DNA of 64,000 bases from Streptomyces sp. 2131.1 (GTDB taxonomy: Bacteria > Actinomycetota > Actinomycetes > Streptomycetales > Streptomycetaceae). The position numbers and the translations under genes are program-made. Below are positions 50,490 to 61,036 of the stretch, one piece after another. The notes beneath the pieces were generated by a model that saw only the letters and a list, made by a program, of their open reading frames with translations, was not told the DNA's origin and did no database searches. The DNA lies in the NCBI RefSeq assembly GCF_900105515.1, contig NZ_FNSY01000001.1, positions 2,294,001 through 2,358,000 of the forward strand, given 5' to 3'. Within the stretch, counting starts at the first letter, position 1, and each line of letters starts with the position of its first letter.

Positions 50490-52055
50490 GTGGTCGCACA
50501 CGCACGGGCCGGGGCGCTGGCCGCCGCCGCACTGTTGCTGACGGGGGTGCTCGCGGGGTGCGAGGACGGTACGGACGACAAGCCGGGCAAGCGGGCGGAC
50601 GGCGGCACGGCCTCGTCGCCCGCCGCCCCCTCCTCGTCACCTGAGGCGAGCGGGCTGCCCGCCTCGCTCACCTCGCAGCACCCGGACTGGACCCGCTGCA
50701 AGGCGCCCGAGGGCGGTGAGGCGCCGGGCTCCGAGTGGCGGTGCGCCGCGGTGAAGGTGCCGCTGGACTACGCGAAGCCCGAGGGCGACACGATCGGCAT
50801 CGCCCTGATCCGCAAGCAGGCGACGGACAAGGGCAGGCGCCTGGGTTCGATGCTGTTCAACTTCGGCGGACCCGGCGGCTCCGGCGTCTCGATACTGCCG
50901 CGCGCCGGAAGCGCGTACGCGAGCCTCAACGCCCGTTACGACCTGGTGGGCTTCGACCCGCGCGGGGTGGCACGGAGCTCCGGCGTGCGGTGCCGGGGCG
51001 ACAAGGCGCAGGAGAAGGCGTACCAGGACGTCGACATGACCCCGGACACGGCGGCCGAGGAGGCGGCGTTCATGAAGGACGGCGCCGACTTCGGGGCCGG
51101 CTGCGCGCGTCTCTCCGGCAAGGTTCTCCCGTACGTCGGTACAACGAACGCCGCCCGCGACATGGACCTGATCCGCGAGGTGCTCGGGGACAGGAAGCTG
51201 ACGTACTTCGGGATGTCGTACGGCACCGAACTGGGCGGCACGTACGCCCATCTCTTCCCGAAGAACGTGGGGCGTACGGTCTTCGACGCGGTCGTCGACC
51301 CGACCGCGGACTCCACCGGGCACGCGCGCAACCAGGCGACCGGCTTCCAGCGGGCCCTGGACAACTACTTCAAGGACCGCGGCCAGGACCCGAAGGCGGG
51401 CACCCGGCGCATCACCGCCCTGCTGAAGCGGATCGACGCGAAGCCGCTGCCGACCGGCACGGACCGCACCCTCAACGAGTCCCTCGCGATCACCGGCATC
51501 GTGCTCCCCCTCTACTCCGAGGACAGCTGGCCGGCCCTCACCCGGGCCCTGGAGGAGGCGGAGAACGGCAGTGGCGCCACGCTGCTCCAGCTCGCCGACT
51601 CGTACAACGGCCGGGACGCGGGCGGCCACTACGACACCCAGAACCACTCGCAGCGGGCCATCTCCTGCGCGGACGGCAGGGCGAGGCCCACGGCCGCCGA
51701 GGCCAGGGCGCTGCTGCCCGAGTTCGAGAAGCTGTCCCCGGTCTTCGGCCCGTTCCTGGCCTGGGACACGGCGGGCTGGTGCTCCGGCTGGCCGGTGGAG
51801 GGCGAGCACGACAACCCGGAGGCGAGCGCTCCGGGTGCCGGTCCGATCCTGGTGGTCGGGACGACGGGCGACCCGGCGACGCCGTACGAGGGTGCCCGTC
51901 GGATGGCGGACGAGCTGGGCAAGGGTGTCGGTGTGCTGGTGTCCAACAAGGGCGAGGGGCACGGCGCGTACGGCGTGAGCAGCTGTGTGACGTCGACCGT
52001 GGACGCGTACTTCCTGGACGGCAAGGTGCCGGCGGACGGCAAGAGCTGCTCCTGA
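50490..52055 (+). CDS. Secreted tripeptidyl-aminopeptidase-like lipoprotein, copy 2
   Basis: A 521-residue paralogue of the preceding gene, with the same order of motifs: lipobox VLAGC (Cys 24), NFGGPGGSGVSIL, YFGMSYGTELGG (nucleophile Ser), VGTTGDPATPYEGA and GEGHGAYGVSS. Start GTG at 50490 behind GGGGAGGGAA. The two copies differ in the lid region (about 300-400) and so may differ in substrate preference. Tandem duplication is the simplest origin. It converges with moeZ across a strong hairpin. Confidence 0.9.
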   Translation: MVAHARAGALAAAALLLTGVLAGCEDGTDDKPGKRADGGTASSPAAPSSSPEASGLPASLTSQHPDWTRCKAPEGGEAPGSEWRCAAVKVPLDYAKPEGDTIGIALIRKQATDKGRRLGSMLFNFGGPGGSGVSILPRAGSAYASLNARYDLVGFDPRGVARSSGVRCRGDKAQEKAYQDVDMTPDTAAEEAAFMKDGADFGAGCARLSGKVLPYVGTTNAARDMDLIREVLGDRKLTYFGMSYGTELGGTYAHLFPKNVGRTVFDAVVDPTADSTGHARNQATGFQRALDNYFKDRGQDPKAGTRRITALLKRIDAKPLPTGTDRTLNESLAITGIVLPLYSEDSWPALTRALEEAENGSGATLLQLADSYNGRDAGGHYDTQNHSQRAISCADGRARPTAAEARALLPEFEKLSPVFGPFLAWDTAGWCSGWPVEGEHDNPEASAPGAGPILVVGTTGDPATPYEGARRMADELGKGVGVLVSNKGEGHGAYGVSSCVTSTVDAYFLDGKVPADGKSCS

Positions 52056-52070
52056 CGACACCGCACATGC

Positions 52071-52109
52071 CGAAGGGGCCGGCCCGCGCGACGCGGACCG
52101 GCCCCTTCG
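52071..52109. terminator. Bidirectional terminator between the peptidase gene and moeZ
   Basis: CGAAGGGGCCGG pairs with CCGGCCCCTTCG (12 bp) in the 61-bp convergent gap. Confidence 0.85.
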
Positions 52110-52116
52110 AGGTCTT

Positions 52117-53295
52117 CTAGTAGACCGGCTTCTCGGGCTCGATCTGGTTGACCCAGCCGATCACGCCGCCGCCCAGGTGGACCGCGTCGGCGAAGCCCGC
52201 CGACTTGAGGACCGCGAGGACTTCCGCACTGCGGACACCCGTCTTGCAGTTCAGGACGATGCGACGGTCCTGGGGGAGGTCCTGGAGGGCGTTGCCCATC
52301 AGGAACTCGTTCTTCGGGACCAGCCGGGAGCCCGGGATCGACACGATCTCGTACTCGTTCGGCTCGCGGACGTCGATGATCTCGATCTTCTCGTCGGCGT
52401 CGATCCACTCCTTGAGCTGCTTCGGAGTGATCGTCGAACCGGCCGCCGCCTCCTGGGCCTCCTCGGACACGACGCCGCAGAAGGCCTCGTAGTCGATGAG
52501 CTCGGTGACGGTGGGGTTCTCACCGCAGACCGCGCAGTCGGGGTCCTTGCGGACCTTGACCTGCCGGTACTGCATCTCCAGGGCGTCGTAGATCATCAGC
52601 CGGCCGACCAGCGGGTCGCCGATGCCGGCGAGCAGCTTGATGGCCTCGTTGACCTGGATGGAGCCGATGGAGGCGCAGAGCACGCCGAGGACGCCGCCCT
52701 CGGCGCAGGACGGAACCATGCCCGGCGGGGGCGGCTCCGGGTAGAGGCAGCGGTAGCAGGGGCCGTGCTCGGACCAGAACACGGACGCCTGGCCGTCGAA
52801 GCGGTAGATCGAGCCCCAGACGTAGGGCTTGTTCAGCAGGACCGCGGCGTCGTTGACGAGATAGCGGGTGGCGAAGTTGTCCGTGCCGTCCACGATCAGG
52901 TCGTACTGGGAGAAGATGTCCATCACGTTGTCGGCTTCGAGCCGCTCCTCGTGAAGGACCACGTTGACCAGGGGGTTGATGCCCTGGACGGTCTCCTTGG
53001 CCGACAGGGCCTTGGACTTGCCGATGTCGCCCTGGCTGTGGATGACCTGGCGCTGCAGGTTCGACTCGTCGACCTCGTCGAACTCCACGATGCCGAGCGT
53101 GCCGACACCGGCGGCGGCCATGTACATCAGGGCCGGCGAACCGAGGCCGCCGGCGCCGACACAGAGCACCTTCGCGTTCTTCAGCCGCTTCTGCCCGTCC
53201 ATCCCGACATCCGGGATGATCAGGTGGCGGGAGTACCTGCGGACCTCGTCGACGGTGAGCTCAGCAGCTGGCTCGACCAGGGGTGGCAGCGACAC
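52117..53295 (-). CDS. moeZ: MoeZ: adenylyltransferase/sulfurtransferase
   Basis: A 392-residue fusion of a MoeB-like E1 domain and a rhodanese domain. The E1 part has GAGGLGSPALMYMAAAG (nucleotide loop), the adenylation Arg in ESNLQRQVIHSQ, catalytic-Cys region and the zinc Cys pairs CYRC and CAVC. The rhodanese part has IIDVREPNEYEIVSIPGS and the persulfide Cys in LNCKTGVRS. It activates and thiocarboxylates ubiquitin-like sulfur carriers (MoaD, CysO, ThiS-like) for molybdopterin, cysteine and related synthesis. GTG 53295 is the start. A perfect sigma-R promoter lies 67-93 nt upstream, fitting the role of MoeZ in sulfur supply under thiol stress. Confidence 0.95.
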   Translation of the reverse strand: MSLPPLVEPAAELTVDEVRRYSRHLIIPDVGMDGQKRLKNAKVLCVGAGGLGSPALMYMAAAGVGTLGIVEFDEVDESNLQRQVIHSQGDIGKSKALSAKETVQGINPLVNVVLHEERLEADNVMDIFSQYDLIVDGTDNFATRYLVNDAAVLLNKPYVWGSIYRFDGQASVFWSEHGPCYRCLYPEPPPPGMVPSCAEGGVLGVLCASIGSIQVNEAIKLLAGIGDPLVGRLMIYDALEMQYRQVKVRKDPDCAVCGENPTVTELIDYEAFCGVVSEEAQEAAAGSTITPKQLKEWIDADEKIEIIDVREPNEYEIVSIPGSRLVPKNEFLMGNALQDLPQDRRIVLNCKTGVRSAEVLAVLKSAGFADAVHLGGGVIGWVNQIEPEKPVY

Positions 53296-53361
53296 AGGAA
53301 CCTCAACAATGCAGGTGGTCGGTTTCTACGTACTTCGACTACGTACGGTTGTTCTTGCCGT

Positions 53362-53388
53362 AACACTGCCACGCCCCCTCTCATTCCG
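53362..53388 (-). promoter_or_regulatory. Sigma-R promoter of moeZ
   Basis: CGGAAT (53388-53383) and GTT (53364-53362) with exactly 18 nt between. It overlaps the last codons of the upstream spherulin-4-like gene (stop at 53381). The start would be near 53355. Confidence 0.88.
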
Positions 53389-54208
53389 AGATACCAGGTC
53401 CGATCCGCGAGACGATTTCGTCCCAGTACCTGGGCAGTGCCGCGAATGGGTCGCTTTGTCCGCGACCGTTCCCCGGACCCGCGCGACCGCCTCGGTCGGT
53501 GAAGAAGATCGTCCCCGCGCCCTGCCAGCGGGCGATGCGCATCGCCTCCTCCAGATGCGTGCGCGGGACGCCGTGCACGAAGTGCGCGAACCGGCCGGGC
53601 GGATAGTCGGCCGTCCACTCCGCCACCTGCGACCAGCGGTAGTCGCTCCACGCGCCCCGGAACGTCACCAGCTGGTCCCCCGTCTCGGCGTAGCCCGGGT
53701 ACGGGTGCGTGTCGTGCCCCAGCACGACATGCCCGCCGCCCCTCCCCAGGAACGCCCGCAGGGTGCCGGTGAGCCGCCGCACGCCGGGCAGACCGGCGCG
53801 GTCGGCCGGACAGCGGTCGAGGTAGAAGCCGTCCACCCGGTACCAGTCGAGGAACGACCGGGCGTCGGCGAGCAGTTCCCCGAAGGGCCGGGCCCCGTGG
53901 GCGAGGTCGAGCTGCCCGAGGAGCCCGCCGCCCGCCGCCCGCACGGTGTCGACGGGCTCCCCGTCGCGCAGCGCGCGGGCCCGGGCGTTGCGCAGCCGGC
54001 CCGCCGCCTCCAGACAGTGCGGGTCGGGCCTGCTGCCGGGGCCGTTGTCGATGTTGAGGACCGCCCAGTGCAGCGGGGTGCCCGGGCGGGTCAGCTCCGC
54101 CCATTCGGCGGGCGCGAGCAGCGGGTGGGCGTAGCCGGGTACGCCGAAGCCGAGCCGGTCGGCGCCGCTGGCGCGGCGGGCGGTGCCGGTACTGGTCAGA
54201 TACGGCAC
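53381..54208 (-). CDS. Spherulin-4/GH114-like glycoside hydrolase family protein
   Basis: A 275-residue TIM-barrel type protein of the spherulin-4 family. Diagnostic strings are VPGYAHPLLAPAEWAEL, VLNIDNGPGSRPDPHCLEA, a strand ending in GQLDLAHG, the acidic DWYRVDGFYLDRCPAD (about residue 125), VVLGHDTHPYPGYAETGDQL and FRGAWSDYRWSQ. Related domains hydrolyse partially deacetylated galactosamine-type exopolysaccharides (the hydrolase part of PelA). No signal peptide is visible with the GTG at 54208, which has GGAGG 5 nt upstream and overlaps the epimerase gene. It may therefore act inside the cell or be exported differently. Confidence 0.75.
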   Translation of the reverse strand: MPYLTSTGTARRASGADRLGFGVPGYAHPLLAPAEWAELTRPGTPLHWAVLNIDNGPGSRPDPHCLEAAGRLRNARARALRDGEPVDTVRAAGGGLLGQLDLAHGARPFGELLADARSFLDWYRVDGFYLDRCPADRAGLPGVRRLTGTLRAFLGRGGGHVVLGHDTHPYPGYAETGDQLVTFRGAWSDYRWSQVAEWTADYPPGRFAHFVHGVPRTHLEEAMRIARWQGAGTIFFTDRGGRAGPGNGRGQSDPFAALPRYWDEIVSRIGPGISE

Positions 54209-55161
54209 GCCGCCTCCATCCAGATGTCGGCCAGGGACTCCTCCAGGTTGATCCGGGGGCGCCAGCCGAGCCGGTCCCGGGCGGTGCGGACGTCGGCCTG
54301 CTGCCAGGCGCCGCAGCCGTCCGGGTACGGGGACGGGGTGGCCGAGAGGTGCTCGATGACCGACTCGGACGAGGTGCGGGGGGCGTGGATGGGGAGGCGC
54401 GCGGGGGGCGTGTCCAGCTCGTGGAGCGCGCCGGCGTATCCGGCGACCTTGGCGAGGACGGCCGCCGCGTCGCGCAGCCGGACGGCGCGGCCGGTGCCGA
54501 TGTTGACGACGCCCTGCGCGGCGGAGAGGGAGGCGGCATGCACGGCCCGCGCCACATCGCGTACGTCGACGAAGTCCCGCTGCACCCCGAGGCCGCTGAG
54601 CTTCAGCTCGCCGTCGCCGGACTGCATGGTGCGGCGCATGGCCTCGGCGAGCCGGCCGAGCGGGGAGCCGGCCGGGGTCCCGGGACCGACCGGCGAGAAG
54701 ACCCGCAGCACGACCGCGTCGAGGCCGGAGCCGAGGACGAGCTCGGTGGCGGCGAGCTTGCTGACGCCGTACGGGCCGCCGGGGCGCGGGATGGCGTCCT
54801 CGGCGGTGGAGGACCCTGGCTGGGAGGGCCCGTACTCCGAGGCGCAGCCGACCTGGACGAGGCGGGCGGTGCAGCGGCTGCGCCGCATGGCCTCGCAGAC
54901 GGTGGCGACGGCGACGGTGTTGTGCCGGGTGAGGTCGCGGGCGCCGCCCCGGGTCGCGCCGGCGCAGTTGACGACGACGCCGGGATGCACGGCGTCGAGG
55001 AAGCGGGTGAGCGCTCCGGGGCTGCCGTTCGCGAGGTCGAACCGTACGTCGGCGTCGTCGCCGCGGCCGAGTGCGGTGAGGTGGACGGCGGGGTCGGCGA
55101 GCAGCCGGTCGGCCACGAACCGGCCGATGAATCCGTTGGCTCCGAGCAGCAGCACCCTCAT
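54196..55161 (-). CDS. NAD-dependent sugar epimerase/dehydratase
   Basis: A 321-residue extended SDR enzyme of the nucleotide-sugar epimerase type. The Rossmann loop LLLGANGFIGRFVADRL is at the N-terminus, a Ser-rich catalytic strand VQVGCASEYGPS near 125, and the YGVSKLAATEL catalytic Tyr/Lys near 150. QRDFVDVRDVARAVHAA near 215 is typical of UDP-sugar enzymes. The Ser of SxSE may be replaced by Cys/Ala-Ser, so the exact reaction is uncertain. It overlaps the spherulin-4-like gene at its end and sits between that gene and a membrane protein and glycosyltransferase, which suggests a sugar-nucleotide supply role for a polysaccharide. Confidence 0.85.
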   Translation of the reverse strand: MRVLLLGANGFIGRFVADRLLADPAVHLTALGRGDDADVRFDLANGSPGALTRFLDAVHPGVVVNCAGATRGGARDLTRHNTVAVATVCEAMRRSRCTARLVQVGCASEYGPSQPGSSTAEDAIPRPGGPYGVSKLAATELVLGSGLDAVVLRVFSPVGPGTPAGSPLGRLAEAMRRTMQSGDGELKLSGLGVQRDFVDVRDVARAVHAASLSAAQGVVNIGTGRAVRLRDAAAVLAKVAGYAGALHELDTPPARLPIHAPRTSSESVIEHLSATPSPYPDGCGAWQQADVRTARDRLGWRPRINLEESLADIWMEAACRI

Positions 55162-55217
55162 CGCGCACCGCCTTGGGGCCGACGGCGGGCTGCCGGTGCG
55201 GGGGATTGCGGGGTCAT
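55158..55217 (-). CDS. 19-codon leader ORF coupled to the epimerase gene
   Basis: ATG at 55217 has the strongest ribosome binding site in the area (AAGGAG, 8 nt spacing). The frame encodes MTPQSPAPAARRRPQGGAR and stops by overlapping the epimerase ATG (ATGA). The epimerase itself has only a weak site (GGCGGTG). This looks like a translational-coupling leader peptide, but it is short and could be chance. Confidence 0.45.
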   Translation of the reverse strand: MTPQSPAPAARRRPQGGAR

Positions 55218-55302
55218 GTCGGTGTCTCCTTGGGGAAGTTTCGTACGGTTCGGGTGGTGACGGCCCGCGGCGTCGGCTCCGCGGACCGGCTCGGGGGCCG
55301 CC

Positions 55303-56628
55303 TCAGGGGGCGGCGTGTGCGGACGCCCTGGAGAGGGCGAGGGTGGCGGTGATCAGCAGGCCGAGGGCGGCCGCGCCGCAGGCGAGCGCGGGGACGGCCC
55401 CGGCGCCCGCCGCTTCGACGAGGGCGTCGACCGGGCGGGCGACGGCGTGGAGCCCGGGCAGCCGGCCGGCCAGGATCAGGGCGGGGGCGGCGGCCTCGAC
55501 CGCGCAGGCGGCGGCGAGTCCGGTGGCGGCGGGTTCGGGGAAACCGTGGACGGCCAACAGCCGGGCCAGCAGGAGCAGCAGCCCGAGGGCGGCGGCCCCG
55601 ACCGGTGCGCCGCCGCTGCCGAGTCCCAGGCGGGCCAGGTACAGCAGCACGGCGAGCGTGCAGAGGAAGAGCGCGACGACGCCGAAGAGCAGGGGGCGCG
55701 CGCCGGCCGCGAACTCCTCCAGAGCGTGGCTGCCGTGCAGTCTGCGGTGGGCGGACAGGGCGAAGATGTGGGCGCACCAGGCGGCGGGCGCCACCGCCAC
55801 GGCGAGCGCCGGCAGGGGTGCCGGGGTCAGCGTCCAGGGGCCTTCCGGGCCCCCGCTGAGGACTTGGTGCAACAGCGCGTCGCCGTACAGCACGTAGCCG
55901 AGCAGCCAGCAGACGCACAGGGCCGCGGTGCCGGAGAAGCGGGGCTCGGCGCGCAGCGGGCCGGTGCGCACGGCGAGGACGAGCACGACGAGCGTGAGCA
56001 GGGCCCCACCGCAGCCGATGGCGAGCCGTGCGTCGCCGCCGAGCAGCCCGTCGGTGAGCCGGAGAGCGCCGAACGTCGACAGGCAGGCGGCGCCCGGCAG
56101 CAGCGCCCGCAGGGTCCAGGCAGCGCGCGTGGTGACGTCGCGCGCCGGAGCGGGGCCCGTCGCGACGGACTCCCCCGCGACCGCGGGGACCCGGGCGAAG
56201 AGCTCCTCGGCGAGCGAGAACACGTCCCGGTGCCGGTAGCGGGCGGCGGTCCGGTCGGTGACCCCGTGCGCCTCAAGACCCGCGGCGATCTCCAGCGGAT
56301 CGACGGCCCGCTCACACAGCTCCCGGTGCCGGTGCATGAGAGCCCGCACCGGATCGGCGGTCCCCCGCCGCCCGGCGACGGCCTTGCGCACGGCGGCGTT
56401 ACGGGCGGCGTGCGGGTGAGCGGCGTGCGCGACCTCCGGGGGGCGTACGGGGGCGTGCGCGGGCGCTTCCGGCGAAGAACCGTTCACTGCGGAACCGGCG
56501 CGCGCGGGCGCGTCGGGCGAGGAGCCTTCCGCCATGGCACCGGCGTGCGCGGGCGCGCCTCCGGTGGTGTGCGCCGACTCCCCCGGCGCGCTCCCCTCAA
56601 GGGCGTCCTCGTGGCCCTCGCGGCTCAT
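55303..56628 (-). CDS. Polytopic membrane protein of the polysaccharide-type cluster
   Basis: A 441-residue protein. The first about 100 residues are Ala/Gly/Pro/His-rich and disordered-looking. Residues about 105-165 are a conserved helical module (LMHRHRELCERAVDPLEIAA and RTAARYRHRDVFSLAEELFA). The rest has about nine hydrophobic segments. It could be the transporter or scaffold partner of the neighbouring PelF-like glycosyltransferase, in the place PelG takes in Pel operons. I cannot show homology to PelG by eye. ATG 56628 is preceded by GGAGG. The gap to the glycosyltransferase gene is 46 bp. Confidence 0.7.
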   Translation of the reverse strand: MSREGHEDALEGSAPGESAHTTGGAPAHAGAMAEGSSPDAPARAGSAVNGSSPEAPAHAPVRPPEVAHAAHPHAARNAAVRKAVAGRRGTADPVRALMHRHRELCERAVDPLEIAAGLEAHGVTDRTAARYRHRDVFSLAEELFARVPAVAGESVATGPAPARDVTTRAAWTLRALLPGAACLSTFGALRLTDGLLGGDARLAIGCGGALLTLVVLVLAVRTGPLRAEPRFSGTAALCVCWLLGYVLYGDALLHQVLSGGPEGPWTLTPAPLPALAVAVAPAAWCAHIFALSAHRRLHGSHALEEFAAGARPLLFGVVALFLCTLAVLLYLARLGLGSGGAPVGAAALGLLLLLARLLAVHGFPEPAATGLAAACAVEAAAPALILAGRLPGLHAVARPVDALVEAAGAGAVPALACGAAALGLLITATLALSRASAHAAP

Positions 56629-56674
56629 CGTCGTTCCTCCGTGCTGCTGTTCGGCCGGGCCCGTCGGCCCGTGG

Positions 56675-58531
56675 TCACGCATCGCTGCCCCCGGCGCCCG
56701 CCCAGCTCGGGGTGCGGCCGGCGCGTTCGTCCCCGTCCGGGACCGGCCAGTGGTCCCGGACGTGGGCTTCCGGCGGGGTGGCGAAGGGGCGCGGGGTGTC
56801 GTCGGCGGGCAGGAACCTCTCGCGCACCGGGGCCCGTGCGATCAGGTCCAGGTAGATCCCGCGGAAGGCGGCCAGGTTCTGCTCGACCGTGAAGAGCTCG
56901 AGCGCCCGGGCGCGCGCCGCCGCACCCAGGCGTGCACGGCGCGCAGGGTCGCGCAGGAGCGCGACGCACGCGTCCGCGAGCGCCCGGGGGTTGCGCGGCG
57001 GGACCACGAGGCCCGTGCCGCCGATGACCTCGACGACCGCGCCGACGTCCGTGGAGACCGTGGCCCGGCCGCAGAACATCGCCTCGACCAGGCTGATCGG
57101 GAAGCCCTCGACGACGCTGGAGAGCACCACGACGCCGCCGGCCCCGTACGCCTGGGCCAGGTCGGGCACCTCGGGTCCGCCGATCTCCTCGAAGGTGACC
57201 GGCCCCTCCCCGTCGCCCGCTGTCCGGTCGAAGTCGCCTGCGGGCTCGTCGGAGTCGCGCACGGTCCCGTCGGAGGCGCGCACGGGCCCGTCGAGGTCGC
57301 CCGCCGCCCCGTCGGAGGGGAAGAGCTGGGCGGCCAAGGTGCGGCAGCGCTCCAAGTAGGCGGCGCCCGCCGGGTCCTGGGCCGGGGCCCCGATGATCCG
57401 CAGCCGGGCCTCCGGCTCGGCGAGGCGCACCTCGGCGAAGGCGTGCAGCAGGGCGATCAGGTCCTTGGCGGGCTCGATGCGGCCGACCCAGACGAGCGTG
57501 TCGGGCCCGCCGTCGTCCTCGCTCTCGCCGAGCGCCGCGAACCGGGCGGACTCCATGCCGGGGTAGACGGTCCGCACCTTCGCGGGGTCGGCGCCGCACC
57601 GCTCCTGCCAGCGGCGGGCGTGGGTGTTGCCGGGGGTGACGAGCGCGGCCTGCCGGTAGACCTCGGTGGCGAGCAGCCCGTGGAAGTTGGCGAGGAGCGC
57701 CCGCACCGGTGCGCCGGCCGGGGCGCCGCCGGACGCGAGGTAGTGCGCCCGGACCCGCACGGCGTGCTCGGTGACCAGCAGCGGGACGCCGAAGAAGCGT
57801 TTGGCCAGCAGACCCGGGAGGGCGGCGACGCCGCCTGCCGTGGCATGGCAGAGGTCGACGGCTCCGAGGCCGTCCTCGTCGTACCAGTCGAGGGAGAGGG
57901 GGCGCAGCGCCCGGTCCAGTTCGGCGGTGAAGGCGAGGAGGTCGGCGACGGAGGCGGTCTGGACTGTGCGTCCGGTGCCGGGCGCCCGGCAAGCGGCCTC
58001 CAGGATGCGCACGGCCGTCTCGGAGCGCAGGGCGGCGGGCAGTCCGCCGTACTCGAAGGCGAGTTCGGCGAGTCCGTAGAGGCCGCGCGTGAACCGCTCG
58101 TCCGCGAGCCGGGACGCGGCGCCTTCCGTACGGGCGCCGGTCCCGGCGTCCGCCGTCTCGCCCCTGTCGCCGTCCGCCGCACCGCAGACCGCGGCCGCCA
58201 GGTCCGCGAAGCGGGTGGTGAAGAGGCGGCGTTCGCGCCGGGCGTAGGTCCGCGCGCCCCCTCCGGTGAGCAGCCGGGCGAGCGGCCCCCGGGGGGCGTG
58301 CAGGCCGAGGGTCTCCTCGTCAGCGGTCCACAGGGGCGCCGTCCGCACGCCGACGACCTGGGCCGGCAGCCGGACCCAGCCCTGCGCCTCCTGTTCGGCG
58401 GAGCGGCTGAGCGCGAAGAGGTCGAACTCGTGCTGCGCGAGCCCGCGTACCAGACGGTCGCACCAGAGTCTGGACTCACCGGTCGCGTACGGATAGCCAC
58501 CGTCGGTGAGCAGTCCGATCCGCACGAGCAC
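56675..58531 (-). CDS. PelF-like GT4 glycosyltransferase (DUF3492 type)
   Basis: A 618-residue family-4 glycosyltransferase with the PelF/DUF3492 N-terminal domain: RIGLLTDGGYPYATGESRLW at the start, FDLFALSRS, and VDLCHATAGGVAALPGLLAK around 235. The GT-B donor half has TVYPGMESARF, LVWVGRIEPAKDLIALL (about 355), and the nucleotide-sugar-binding VVLSSVVEGFPISLVEAMFC (E-x7-E, about 500). An Asp/Gly-rich insertion of about 60 residues (around 430-470) is unusual. In Pel systems PelF polymerises amino sugars from UDP donors. Start is the GTG at 58531. A 16-bp hairpin lies in its leader. Confidence 0.85.
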   Translation of the reverse strand: MLVRIGLLTDGGYPYATGESRLWCDRLVRGLAQHEFDLFALSRSAEQEAQGWVRLPAQVVGVRTAPLWTADEETLGLHAPRGPLARLLTGGGARTYARRERRLFTTRFADLAAAVCGAADGDRGETADAGTGARTEGAASRLADERFTRGLYGLAELAFEYGGLPAALRSETAVRILEAACRAPGTGRTVQTASVADLLAFTAELDRALRPLSLDWYDEDGLGAVDLCHATAGGVAALPGLLAKRFFGVPLLVTEHAVRVRAHYLASGGAPAGAPVRALLANFHGLLATEVYRQAALVTPGNTHARRWQERCGADPAKVRTVYPGMESARFAALGESEDDGGPDTLVWVGRIEPAKDLIALLHAFAEVRLAEPEARLRIIGAPAQDPAGAAYLERCRTLAAQLFPSDGAAGDLDGPVRASDGTVRDSDEPAGDFDRTAGDGEGPVTFEEIGGPEVPDLAQAYGAGGVVVLSSVVEGFPISLVEAMFCGRATVSTDVGAVVEVIGGTGLVVPPRNPRALADACVALLRDPARRARLGAAARARALELFTVEQNLAAFRGIYLDLIARAPVRERFLPADDTPRPFATPPEAHVRDHWPVPDGDERAGRTPSWAGAGGSDA

Positions 58532-58604
58532 ACCCCCGATCTCCCTTGTGAGCGGCCACCGTTGGATCGGCGACTCGCGGCGGGACGACCGTAAGCGGAT
58601 ACGC

Positions 58605-58640
58605 CGGTGGCGCGACGGACGGTTGTCCGTCGCGCCACCG
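58605..58640. repeat. Perfect inverted repeat in the leader of the glycosyltransferase gene
   Basis: CGGTGGCGCGACGGAC and its complement (16 bp) around GGTT, within the 214-bp gap between the DUF3152 gene end and the glycosyltransferase start. No T tract is present. It may be the terminator of the DUF3152 transcript or a regulatory hairpin. Confidence 0.6.
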
Positions 58641-58745
58641 AAAGGGGTGAACCGGCGTAACTTTCCCGCCCTGATAGCGTTCTGTCGCGCTATAGAGGCG
58701 GAGTGTCACCGAAAGAGTGGCTCACAAAGGCTGCTTGATACCCAC

Positions 58746-60062
58746 TCAGCCCTCGGGATACACCCAGGGGTTGGGGCGGCATTTGATGCCGTTGAGGTCC
58801 AGCGTCTTGGTCTGCTGCTGCATGACCGGCGCGAGCGCGCCCTTCGTCCGGCAGCTCACATGGTTGTGGCCGAGCCGGTGGCCGACCTCGTGGTTGATCA
58901 GCATCTGCCGGTACGGGAACAGCTTGTCCGGGCCGAAGGTGGCGGAACCCTGGGCCCAGCGATAGGCGTTGATCATCACGCGCTCGGTGGCGGCCGAGTC
59001 GCAGGAGACGTTGTCCTCCATGGTGTCCAGGCCCGACTTCTCGCACCACTTCCCGGTCGTGCCGGGGCTCGCCAGGGTGATGACGAAGTCCGGCTTGCCC
59101 TCGGAGATCCGCTCGAAGGTCATGTCGCCGTCGTGCGCCCAGCTCCGGTCGTCGTTGAGGGTCTCCTGGACGGCCCTGGCGAACAGCTGCGCGTCCAGCC
59201 CGAGCCCCTTCTCGACGTCGATCCGGTAGCTGTGCTTCGTCCCCTTGCCGGGCGCCTTCGCGGTACCGGGCACGGTCTCGAACTTGCCCGAACCCGTCAG
59301 CGCCGGGGACAGCGGATAGGGCTTGGCCATCTTCTGTTCGTACGTCAGGGGCTTGACGGCCGCCTCGGGCGAAGGGGTCGTGCGGCCGTCCGAACGGGAG
59401 GCGTCGCCCTGCTCGTCCCGGTCGACACCCGCGGCCTGGGCGGCACCGCTCCCGGAGGTGCGGTCGTGGGCGACCTGGCCGGCCACGACGACCGCGAGCA
59501 CGGTGGTCACCGCCGCAGCGGCGATGCCGGTGAACGTACGCCCCCGGCCGCCCTTGGAGTCCTTGGCCCGGACCGGGCCCGGCTCCGGTTCGGGTTCCTC
59601 GCCGCGCGGCGATTCCGGCTCGCGCGCGTCCCAGTCGGTGACGGAGCGGTACGGGTCCTCGGGCGCCCCGCTCCGCCGGCGCGAGGCGGGCGGCGCGCCG
59701 TCGAACGCCTCGACGAACTCGCGCCGCGGGCCCGGTATGAACGGCCGGGCGCCGGTGGCCTGCTGCTGGTTCGCGGGGTGCGGGACGCCGGGCCGGGCGC
59801 CGGGTGCGGGGGCGCGCGGGCCGGGTCCGCCGGGCGCGCGCATCGGGCCCGCGCCCCAGCCGCCGCCGGGTTCACGCTGTTCGGGGTGTCCGCCGCGCAC
59901 CTCGGGGGCCCCGGGGAGGGGCCCGGCCGCGGGTCCGGCCTGCCGTCTGCGCCGTCCGGTGCCGACGGCGGGCCGGGCGGCCTCGCGCCCCGCCTCGTCC
60001 GCCTCGGTCTGCCCGGTCCCGGGCGCGCTGGGCGCAGGGCCCTTCCGGCTGTGTCGTCCCAC
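58746..60062 (-). CDS. DUF3152 membrane-anchored metzincin-like protein
   Basis: A 438-residue protein. A long Pro/Gly/Arg-rich cytoplasmic N-terminus (1-175) precedes one membrane segment (RTFTGIAAAAVTTVLAVVVA), a linker and the C-terminal DUF3152 domain (about 260-438). That domain carries the extended zinc motif LINHEVGHRLGHNHVSC (HExxHxxGxxH), the metzincin pattern, with Cys residues in GKWCEKS, VSCDSA and KCRPNPW that could form disulfides outside the cell. The conserved actinobacterial family is uncharacterised. GTG 60062 (VGRHSRKG) is chosen because it starts just after the upstream gene stops. The mycobacterial homologue lies directly next to moeZ (from memory). Confidence 0.82.
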   Translation of the reverse strand: MGRHSRKGPAPSAPGTGQTEADEAGREAARPAVGTGRRRRQAGPAAGPLPGAPEVRGGHPEQREPGGGWGAGPMRAPGGPGPRAPAPGARPGVPHPANQQQATGARPFIPGPRREFVEAFDGAPPASRRRSGAPEDPYRSVTDWDAREPESPRGEEPEPEPGPVRAKDSKGGRGRTFTGIAAAAVTTVLAVVVAGQVAHDRTSGSGAAQAAGVDRDEQGDASRSDGRTTPSPEAAVKPLTYEQKMAKPYPLSPALTGSGKFETVPGTAKAPGKGTKHSYRIDVEKGLGLDAQLFARAVQETLNDDRSWAHDGDMTFERISEGKPDFVITLASPGTTGKWCEKSGLDTMEDNVSCDSAATERVMINAYRWAQGSATFGPDKLFPYRQMLINHEVGHRLGHNHVSCRTKGALAPVMQQQTKTLDLNGIKCRPNPWVYPEG

Positions 60063-60070
60063 GCCCTGGA

Positions 60071-61036
60071 TCAGCTCCTGCCGCATTCGTCGAGCAATTC
60101 CCGGAACGCCTGGGCGACCGCCTCCGGGTACTCCATCATCGCCACGTGCCCGGCGTCGGGCAGTGTCAGCAGGCGCGCGTCGCGGAAGGCCGCGGACGCC
60201 CTGCGGGCCATCCGGAACGAGACGAGCTGGTCCCGTCCGCCGTACACCAGCTGGGTCGGCGCGAGCACCCGCTCGGCCTGACGCCACAGCCCGTGCTGTC
60301 CGCCCAACGTGTACGCGTCGACGATGCCACGGGCGGAACGCGCCATGGCGTCCCAGAAGTACGGCAGTTCCAGCCTGCGCTCCATTTCGGCCACCGCGTC
60401 GCGGAAGCCCGTGTCGGAGACCCGTGCCGGATCGCCGTAACAGAGTGCCATGACTCCGCGGGTGCGCTCCTCCGCGGTCCAGTCCCGGGTCAGCCGGGCG
60501 AACAGGGAGGCGACGCCCGGGAGTGCGAGCAGGGCGGTCGGGGCGGCCGAGCGCTGGACCCGGATCTCGGGGAGCGCGGGCGAGACGAGGGTGAGCGTGC
60601 GGACCAGGTCGGGGCGGACCGCGGCGACCCGGGTGGCCACCGCGCCGCCCAGCGAGTTGCCGAACAGGTGGACGGGGCCGCGTTCCTGGGCGTCCAGCAG
60701 GCGGATGACCGCGCGGGCGTGCCCGGTGACCGAGTAGTTGCCGTCGTCCGGGGGCGGCGAGTCACCGAAACCGGGCAGGTCGACGGCCTCGCAGTCGACC
60801 AGTTCCTCCAGGAGCGGCATCAGGGCCGTCCAATTCTGCGAGGAGCCGCCGAGACCGTGCACGAAGAGGGCGGGCGGCAGTCCGGGCCCCCGGGACGGCC
60901 GCGAACGGAGGGTGAGCGTCAGGCCGGGCAGTTCGACGGAGCGCAGCCGCTCCCCCTCCGCAACCCTGACGGTGCTCACCGTGGGGGCCACCGCTGCGGC
61001 GACGGCGCGGACTCCCGGCAGCTCGGTCGAAGACAT
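60071..61036 (-). CDS. Alpha/beta hydrolase
   Basis: A 321-residue alpha/beta hydrolase with oxyanion HGLGGSSQNW (about 60), GFGDSPPPDDGNY, nucleophile elbow HLFGNSLGGAVATRVAA (Ser about 128), acid in VYGGRDQLVS and His in LPDAGHVAMMEYPEAVAQAF. All triad residues are present. The lid (about 175-235) is of average length. No signal peptide is seen. It is 8 nt from the DUF3152 gene on the same strand, so the two are cotranscribed. The substrate is unknown; LipV-type esterase in mycobacterial nomenclature is a possible comparison. Confidence 0.88.
   Translation of the reverse strand: MSSTELPGVRAVAAAVAPTVSTVRVAEGERLRSVELPGLTLTLRSRPSRGPGLPPALFVHGLGGSSQNWTALMPLLEELVDCEAVDLPGFGDSPPPDDGNYSVTGHARAVIRLLDAQERGPVHLFGNSLGGAVATRVAAVRPDLVRTLTLVSPALPEIRVQRSAAPTALLALPGVASLFARLTRDWTAEERTRGVMALCYGDPARVSDTGFRDAVAEMERRLELPYFWDAMARSARGIVDAYTLGGQHGLWRQAERVLAPTQLVYGGRDQLVSFRMARRASAAFRDARLLTLPDAGHVAMMEYPEAVAQAFRELLDECGRS

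Follow-up and report, generated by a model that had tools for sequence, protein, structure and literature searches.

The 64,000-nt stretch of Streptomyces sp. 2131.1 analysed here (the window; contig NZ_FNSY01000001.1, positions 2,294,001 to 2,358,000) carries, next to moeZ, a unit of four genes for a PelF-type glycosyltransferase (GT), a polytopic membrane protein (MEM), a nucleoside diphosphate (NDP)-sugar enzyme (EPI) and a Spherulin4-type protein (SPH). These four co-directional minus-strand open reading frames (ORFs) fill positions 53381-58531 and leave no room in the unit for any further gene, such as one for PelE, at which no search was aimed. The ORFs, together with Pfam and NCBIfam support, agree with an earlier sequence-only reading that had placed four real genes in one tight minus-strand unit here. 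The features of the locus are as follows.

GT, 56675-58531, minus strand: PelF/DUF3492-type GT4 glycosyltransferase, with EX7E and the GR...K donor motif intact.

MEM, 55303-56628, minus strand: polytopic membrane protein; the ATG at 56628 is preceded by GGAGG, and an alternative start lies at 56682.

EPI, 54196-55161, minus strand: extended short-chain dehydrogenase/reductase (SDR) for NDP-sugars; YxxxK is present and Cys106 stands at the triad Ser position.

SPH, 53381 to about 54214, minus strand: Spherulin4/GH135-like protein whose start overlaps the EPI stop; Arg stands at the position of Sph3 Glu222.

moeZ, 52117-53295, minus strand: ThiF plus rhodanese (Pfam), the constant downstream neighbour.

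DUF3152 gene, 58746-60287, minus strand: identified by Pfam, the upstream neighbour in part of the genomes only.

Cis-element 5′ of GT, 58605-58683, minus strand: AACG-N16-GTTACG, TTCACCCCTTTYGG, with a hairpin of about 15 bp and loop AACC at 58605-58640.

We searched 200 genomes drawn from the family with SPH and, from the matches, picked 40 stretches that were fetched wide. SPH was matched in 162 of the 200 genomes and strongly (E 1.6e-70 or better), by a count made by eye, in 58 of the 63 genomes of the genus, the own genome among them. It lies at or near moeZ in 33 of the 40 picked stretches (L038-L070), and 31 of these 33 share the order GT-MEM-EPI-SPH-moeZ; the exceptions are L069, whose stretch holds EPI, SPH and moeZ only, and L070, described below. 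A second sample, the named loci, consists of the best 80 of 563 confirmed SPH-profile matches in Streptomyces, all 80 of them used; SPH is present there by construction, and no SPH DNA is identical to that of L038-L070. All 80 have moeZ and EPI, 76 have MEM and 71 have GT, the nine without GT extending merely 1.1-2.5 kb past SPH, and the end of the SPH match lies 63-104 bp from the moeZ match in 80/80. Fourteen family genomes picked for no or weak SPH hit were then searched for moeZ, and in 13 of them EPI adjoins it. Five genus members (G172, G154, G068, G098 and G113) have GT, MEM and EPI at the moeZ locus with no SPH hit there.

The block thus co-occurs across genomes, as the sequence-only reading had supposed, and because the EPI–moeZ linkage and the gene set recur in the named loci and in those 13 of 14 weak-SPH genomes, the moeZ-linked unit is, as far as sequence comparison goes, old in the family. 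A recent insertion is ruled out within the family by the same linkage, in both sets of genomes, and by the EPI tree described below. The proposal of a block inserted between moeZ and the DUF3152 gene therefore does not hold: adjacency to moeZ is constant, and DUF3152 is found in the flank of 35/80 named loci. Thirty-six named loci have GT without DUF3152, and 34 of these extend at least 3 kb past the GT hit; in several loci other genes lie between DUF3152 and GT, including what by appearance is an ABC transporter set.

Among the weaker SPH matches was another type of locus (L071-L097, 27 loci; hereafter the paralogue), with no moeZ within the stretch in any of them. These loci hold the nearest relatives of the unit. 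By tblastn, seven genes in the one order AGD-GT-MEM-LEGB-NT-EPI-SPH are complete in 22/27, where AGD is an Agd3-like deacetylase, LEGB a LegB-like dehydratase and NT a nucleotidyltransferase. L082 also carries MEM, found by motif; AGD was not seen within the stretch of L083; and L075, L088 and L092 have no LEGB, NT or EPI, L075 also lacking AGD, so that L088 and L092 show a four-gene form, AGD-GT-MEM-SPH. Of 19 AGD members, 14 hit Agd3_CE, with 1.6e-6 as the best E, and 4 hit CBM87_Agd3; against LegB, whose cut-off is 475, the LEGB of L073 reaches 453 bits; and NT is a sugar-1-phosphate nucleotidyltransferase by its matches, none of which is above cut-off. According to PMC7229062, operons around agd3 homologues encode a glycosyltransferase and a multi-spanning membrane protein, joined in some Actinobacteria by a Spherulin-4 gene. 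By its sequence, the seven-gene paralogue is evidently this already published actinobacterial Agd3/galactosaminogalactan (GAG)-like operon kind. AGD matches occur in 32 of 61 genus genomes and, in the same search, 0 in the window's own genome; none of the 80 named loci was hit by AGD, LEGB or NT.

GT matches PF11997 (DUF3492) at 86.8 bits (cut-off 23.3) and GT4 domains in Pfam, and among the 25 NCBIfam families listed its best is the PelF equivalog NF038011; the assignment made from the sequence alone is right in that GT is nearest to PelF, though the score of 98.9 bits lies 1.1 below the cut-off of 100. The two paralogue GTs that were scanned (L073 and L074) reach about 173 bits against the PelF NCBIfam model, above cut-off. 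Donor-site Arg, Lys and both Glu are all kept in the window GT, which looks intact on that basis. When these residues were compared among the moeZ-linked loci (n=33; L069 has no GT), the donor Lys was missing in L052-L054 and Arg stood at that site in L055, and in L052 and L054 Asp replaces the first Glu of EX7E. The GTs of L052-L054, which belong to one lineage, are possible pseudo-enzymes.

An intact GT nearest to PelF would suit a working minimal Pel/GAG system, in which it polymerises N-acetylgalactosamine (GalNAc) made by EPI as a 4-epimerase while MEM exports and SPH trims the polymer. MEM's kinship with MOP exporters, set out below, points the same way, as does the parallel between the gene set and the fungal GAG genes uge3, gtb3 and sph3 (PMC7229062). 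We nevertheless find such a system decidedly unlikely, first on gene content: no deacetylase is linked to the unit and no Agd3-like match occurs in the genome, and the five genus members named above keep GT, MEM and EPI without SPH at the locus.

The membrane protein adds a further objection. MEM has no match in Pfam or NCBIfam. PelG is a 12-helix MOP-superfamily protein (PMC13254593), and the PelG family PF16933 matched neither MEM nor anything else in the genome, its Thermotoga maritima control being positive, nor any of 23 paralogue-type MEMs; PelG membership by sequence is thereby ruled out. MEM has a conserved helical module of about 55 aa (about residues 92-146 when the ATG at 56628 is residue 1) followed by about 8 transmembrane (TM) helices. 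In Pfam, the module of the window MEM matches nothing; that of one paralogue gave a DUF2688 hit at chance level (E 0.082), and that of another no match.

Structure models place the protein. The paralogue MEM model has 12 TM helices (predicted local distance difference test score, pLDDT, 85.3); in Foldseek it returned MATE, WzxE and MurJ rows at probability 1.00, three of them at E 0.001 or better, and in VIA 49 of 50 rows were titled MATE, WzxE, MurJ or MOP, with Z up to 19.9, the remaining row being 5c6n, titled ‘protein A’. The window MEM, modelled with about 8 TM helices (pLDDT 80.7) and a low-confidence N-terminus, aligns with the paralogue MEM across the helical module and the C-terminal part, and its own VIA rows 1-13 are MOP proteins with Z between 9.5 and 12.4, below the value of 13 that is advised for proteins made of helices. 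On these models, the case for a MOP fold in the window MEM draws its strength from the paralogue MEM, its homologue (Z 19.9). Hydrophobic helices after the module number 6-8 in 39/41 moeZ-linked copies versus 10-11 in 9/10 counted paralogues, and the window MEM, with about 8 TM helices in its model, falls short of the two-lobed 12-TM MOP architecture. We read MEM, from the models, as a MOP (MATE/MurJ) fold short of about four helices, a shortening that counts against the minimal Pel/GAG system. The sequence-only reading had listed a clear PelG as missing; no PF16933 match was found in MEM or the genome, yet MEM is homologous to paralogues with the MOP fold, that of PelG's superfamily. The suggestion of a distinct actinobacterial variant in that reading is right.

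SPH was scrutinized at its catalytic residues. It matches PF12138 (Spherulin4) at 52.5 bits (cut-off 30.2), and its nearest solved structures are the spherulin-4 chains 5c5g and 5d6t (GH135), with E 5.8e-19 for 5c5g when the family profile is used. These matches rule out a GH114 reading of SPH. GH114 is the endo-galactosaminidase family; the one GH114 match in the genome is strong and lies at G000:C3:5204651-5205304 (L200), about 2.85 Mb from the unit. Of the earlier description as a spherulin-4/GH114-like hydrolase, the Spherulin4/GH135 half therefore stands and the GH114 half does not. Catalytic positions were mapped through the profile-5c5g alignment, which gives the Asp as that of the FFDE motif and Glu222 as that of VFEAT. 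As the nucleophile we took the FFDE Asp (residue 166). It was chosen because its distance to the Glu fits that of the other families in PMC12054363, where Sph3 Glu222 is named and the Sph3 nucleophile is printed as Asp196. The conclusion that the acid is lost rests on Glu222 and not on the choice of Asp.

In the window SPH the Asp is kept and the Glu222 position is Arg. We counted both residues in 61 sequences (L038-L097 plus the window), sorted by best score into 34 of window type, including the window, L069 and the full-cluster L070, and 27 of the paralogue. The paralogue SPHs have Asp in 27/27 and Glu in 27/27; window-type SPHs have Asp in 22/34 and Glu in 2/34 (L065 and L070); and the named loci have Asp in 59/80 and Glu in 0/80. 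No signal peptide was seen in the window SPH, and a hydrophobic leader from any candidate start was found in 0/80 named SPHs versus 22/25 AGD proteins, the positive control; in the same permissive test 7/28 SPHs of L070-L097 show one. Lost acid and missing leader alike argue against the minimal Pel/GAG system, since a leaderless SPH would sit on the wrong side of the membrane to trim an exported polymer.

With the general acid lost in 32/34 window-type and 80/80 named SPHs, a Spherulin4/GH135 fold and no deacetylase domain in the four proteins (Pfam), the earlier claim of a PelA-type hydrolase has to be dropped. Family searches of the genome call for care here: the PF12138 search of the own genome returned 0 despite SPH being there, and for this reason empty family results were trusted only where a control matched. 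PelD (PF16963) gave no match in the genome, in a search in which no control matched.

EPI, which matches PF01370 (NAD-epimerase), also departs from its relatives at a catalytic position. Tyr131 and Lys135 are kept in the window EPI, and Cys106 (codon TGC, 54844-54846) replaces what we take to be the triad Ser, by the spacing of GalE, 25 residues before the Tyr. Cys stands there in 80/80 named loci and 39/47 other window-type copies, and Ser in 23/24 paralogues, the last being unread. In all 80 named loci this Cys-triad EPI gene neighbours moeZ, a sulfur-carrier activator gene.

What EPI does bears on the sugar used. By profile its nearest solved relative is a GDP-6-deoxy-lyxo-4-hexulose reductase (122 bits), and EPI could therefore be a 4-ketoreductase for an NDP-6-deoxy(amino)sugar, the polymer family being built from such a sugar and not from GalNAc. 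The paralogue, where NT, the LegB-like 4,6-dehydratase and EPI are adjacent as in 6-deoxysugar routes, points that way, and LegB dehydrates GDP-GlcNAc (PMC7439481). For the paralogue, this activity of LegB makes it plausible that NT, LEGB and EPI form a 6-deoxysugar route, with polymers then other than plain GalNAc. Seen by themselves, the three genes are a possible route to a 6-deoxy-amino-sugar polymer. For the enzyme as a whole, however, UDP-glucose 4-epimerases come next in the profile search (first chain so named at 84 bits), close relatives of LegB are absent from the own genome, where identity reaches 30-33% at best, and L088 and L092 do without all three sugar genes. We regard a ketoreductase as possible, though on balance unlikely; it would be compatible with the explanation that we favour below.

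The region upstream of GT is conserved as well. A 79-bp element (window 58605-58683) could be aligned in 18 selected loci and occurs as a single copy in the genome within 3 mismatches. Among the 71 named loci with a GT hit, 67 had an unambiguous GT start and 120 bp or more of upstream DNA and were surveyed for the hairpin. Its core was found in 63/67, 84-129 bp before GT; of the four loci without it, two show poly-C there and two a variant loop. The C runs in the public assemblies of L104 and L114 look like sequencing or assembly artefacts. The hairpin goes with GT, because it is present in 32/35 surveyed named loci without a DUF3152 hit; it is also found in 37/45 unnamed moeZ loci, and in 0/27 paralogue loci. 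Rfam gave no match at the gathering threshold across 52000-60400, and hairpin covariation is not clearly above shuffles, 41/500 of which show as many doubly changed pairs, so that the hairpin may act as RNA or as DNA. Read in reverse, the element (CGTAAC-N16-CGTT) resembles the sigma-BldN site CGTAAC-N16-CGTTGA (PMC2375139), pointing away from GT and towards DUF3152; we merely note this reading, as the DUF3152 gene is on the other strand from its direction.

Median pairwise dN/dS (non-synonymous to synonymous substitution rate), estimated from the window with 15 closely related named loci, or 13 in the case of GT, is 0.05 for EPI, 0.13 for moeZ, 0.26 for SPH, 0.31 for GT and 0.40 for MEM. Purifying selection acts on each of the four, with EPI the most constrained; at medians of 0.05-0.40 none is freely drifting. 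The low EPI value, under that of moeZ, raises the alternative that the locus is kept for the sake of EPI, as a highly constrained NDP-sugar enzyme linked to moeZ or to general metabolism, while GT, MEM and SPH would be drifting remnants of the former cluster. EPI beside moeZ in 13 of the 14 genomes with no or weak SPH, where no SPH was found at the locus, would fit, as would the missing donor Lys in L052-L054. We hold this to be the least probable of the explanations weighed here: purifying selection also acts on GT, MEM and SPH, the genes are kept together in 31/33 loci, and the conserved cis-element precedes GT and not EPI.

The history of the unit was followed in quick trees with SH-aLRT support only and long-branch warnings; five of the 75 loci are absent from the EPI tree, having no EPI of 200 residues. 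In that tree a branch with an SH-aLRT of 100 sets the moeZ-linked copies, L070 among them, apart from the rest. L070 (with L197) comes from genome G015, in which the seven genes are complete, MEM is predicted to have 11 helices and SPH keeps both catalytic residues, and there moeZ lies about 3.6 kb downstream of the seven-gene cluster with other ORFs between. Its SPH is nearest to L069 and groups with the window type, and its GT stands between both groups with support of 100 on each side. In our reading of these sequences, L070/L197 would show the ancestral arrangement close to moeZ, and the window type would have arisen from it by reduction.

Judged by sequence, the locus is of Pel/GAG-cluster descent, real and conserved. 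With a probability of roughly 0.6, we interpret the unit as a reduced and repurposed descendant of an actinobacterial Agd3/GAG- and Pel-like cluster that settled near moeZ early in the family. Pointing to this are three genes fewer than in the paralogue, a MEM shorter by about four helices, the lost SPH acid, the Cys of EPI and the purifying selection on what is left. Under this interpretation EPI would prepare, supply or still bind an NDP-sugar, and GT, in partnership with the shortened MOP-fold MEM, would transfer the sugar on the cytoplasmic side of the membrane. MEM and its conserved helical module may anchor GT, the module being the likely docking part, and SPH, inside the cell, would serve as a non-catalytic carbohydrate-binding or assembly subunit that holds the product or the complex. 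The product would then be a short glycan linked to the membrane or wall, in place of a deacetylated Pel polymer that is exported. With neither a complete exporter nor a deacetylase, the unit is unlikely to export a long Pel-like polymer, and we likewise consider it unlikely that it exports classical Pel. The label of a Pel-like exopolysaccharide cluster would therefore fit the ancestry of the unit and probably not its present product.

A bolder version, which we think unlikely, would have a non-exporting GT complex, nearly universal in Streptomyces, derived from a polysaccharide synthase-exporter, with a gutted flippase as membrane anchor, a dead GH135 barrel as cytosolic glycan-holder, a Cys-triad SDR as constrained core and its own hairpin control. 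If true, the best-studied antibiotic producers would use it to make an envelope glycan that has not been described, possibly tied to MoeZ, the neighbouring sulfur-carrier activator.

Several points weigh against a reduced and repurposed descendant. The Agd3 Pfam hits of AGD are weak, and a PDB search with the AGD profile found no chain. Taken alone, the MOP match of the window MEM model is weak: Foldseek gave nothing under E 0.001, and VIA row 14 is an ABC exporter at Z 9.4, level with the lowest MOP rows; an 8-TM MEM might also work as a dimer. To judge by the GT donor residues examined, all of them kept, polymer could still be made, and it could be exported through another flippase of the genome. 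The SPH of L065 retains both catalytic residues, and a Cys at the SDR Ser position of EPI may be active. As to history, the opposite order may hold, in which L070 would be a later gain; the GTs nearest to L070 by path are paralogues, and the branching order within the moeZ-linked EPI clade is not resolved.

A reduced and repurposed cluster would nonetheless be of some consequence. Streptomyces envelope glycans are poorly assigned to genes, and beside moeZ in most genus genomes examined lies a locus in which a biofilm-polymer hydrolase and an exporter appear to have decayed while a GT and a sugar enzyme stayed under selection. The full and reduced clusters offer a clean comparison for the roles of SPH, exporter and deacetylase in GAG/Pel-type synthesis, and they warn against annotating such loci as Pel biosynthesis or galactosaminidase. 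No paper on a moeZ-linked GT-MEM-EPI-SPH locus appeared among those listed by the literature searches. One of these searches used S. coelicolor locus tags of putative moeZ neighbours, of which only SCO5178 (moeB) is mentioned (PMC4340878).

Three known systems come closest. With the actinobacterial agd3 operons (PMC7229062) the window unit shares a GT, a multi-spanning membrane protein and, where Actinobacteria have one in these operons, the Spherulin-4 gene; as in an Agd3/GAG-like cluster, these stand together with an NDP-sugar enzyme. It differs in having no Agd3-like deacetylase, dehydratase or nucleotidyltransferase, a shortened MEM and an SPH without the acid residue. In common with the fungal GAG cluster (uge3, gtb3, agd3, sph3 and ega3; PMC7229062) it has an epimerase-type SDR, a GT and an Sph3/GH135 relative; unlike that cluster it is without agd3 or a linked ega3, the GH114 gene lying elsewhere, its GT and membrane protein are separate genes, and its SPH has neither the acid residue nor a leader. 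The Gram-positive operon pelDEA(DA)FG of Bacillus cereus (PMC7112168, PMC13254593) likewise sets a PelF-type GT beside a MOP-related membrane protein, whereas the window unit, without a PelG by Pfam and without the PelA deacetylase, has an NDP-sugar enzyme and a Spherulin4 protein instead.

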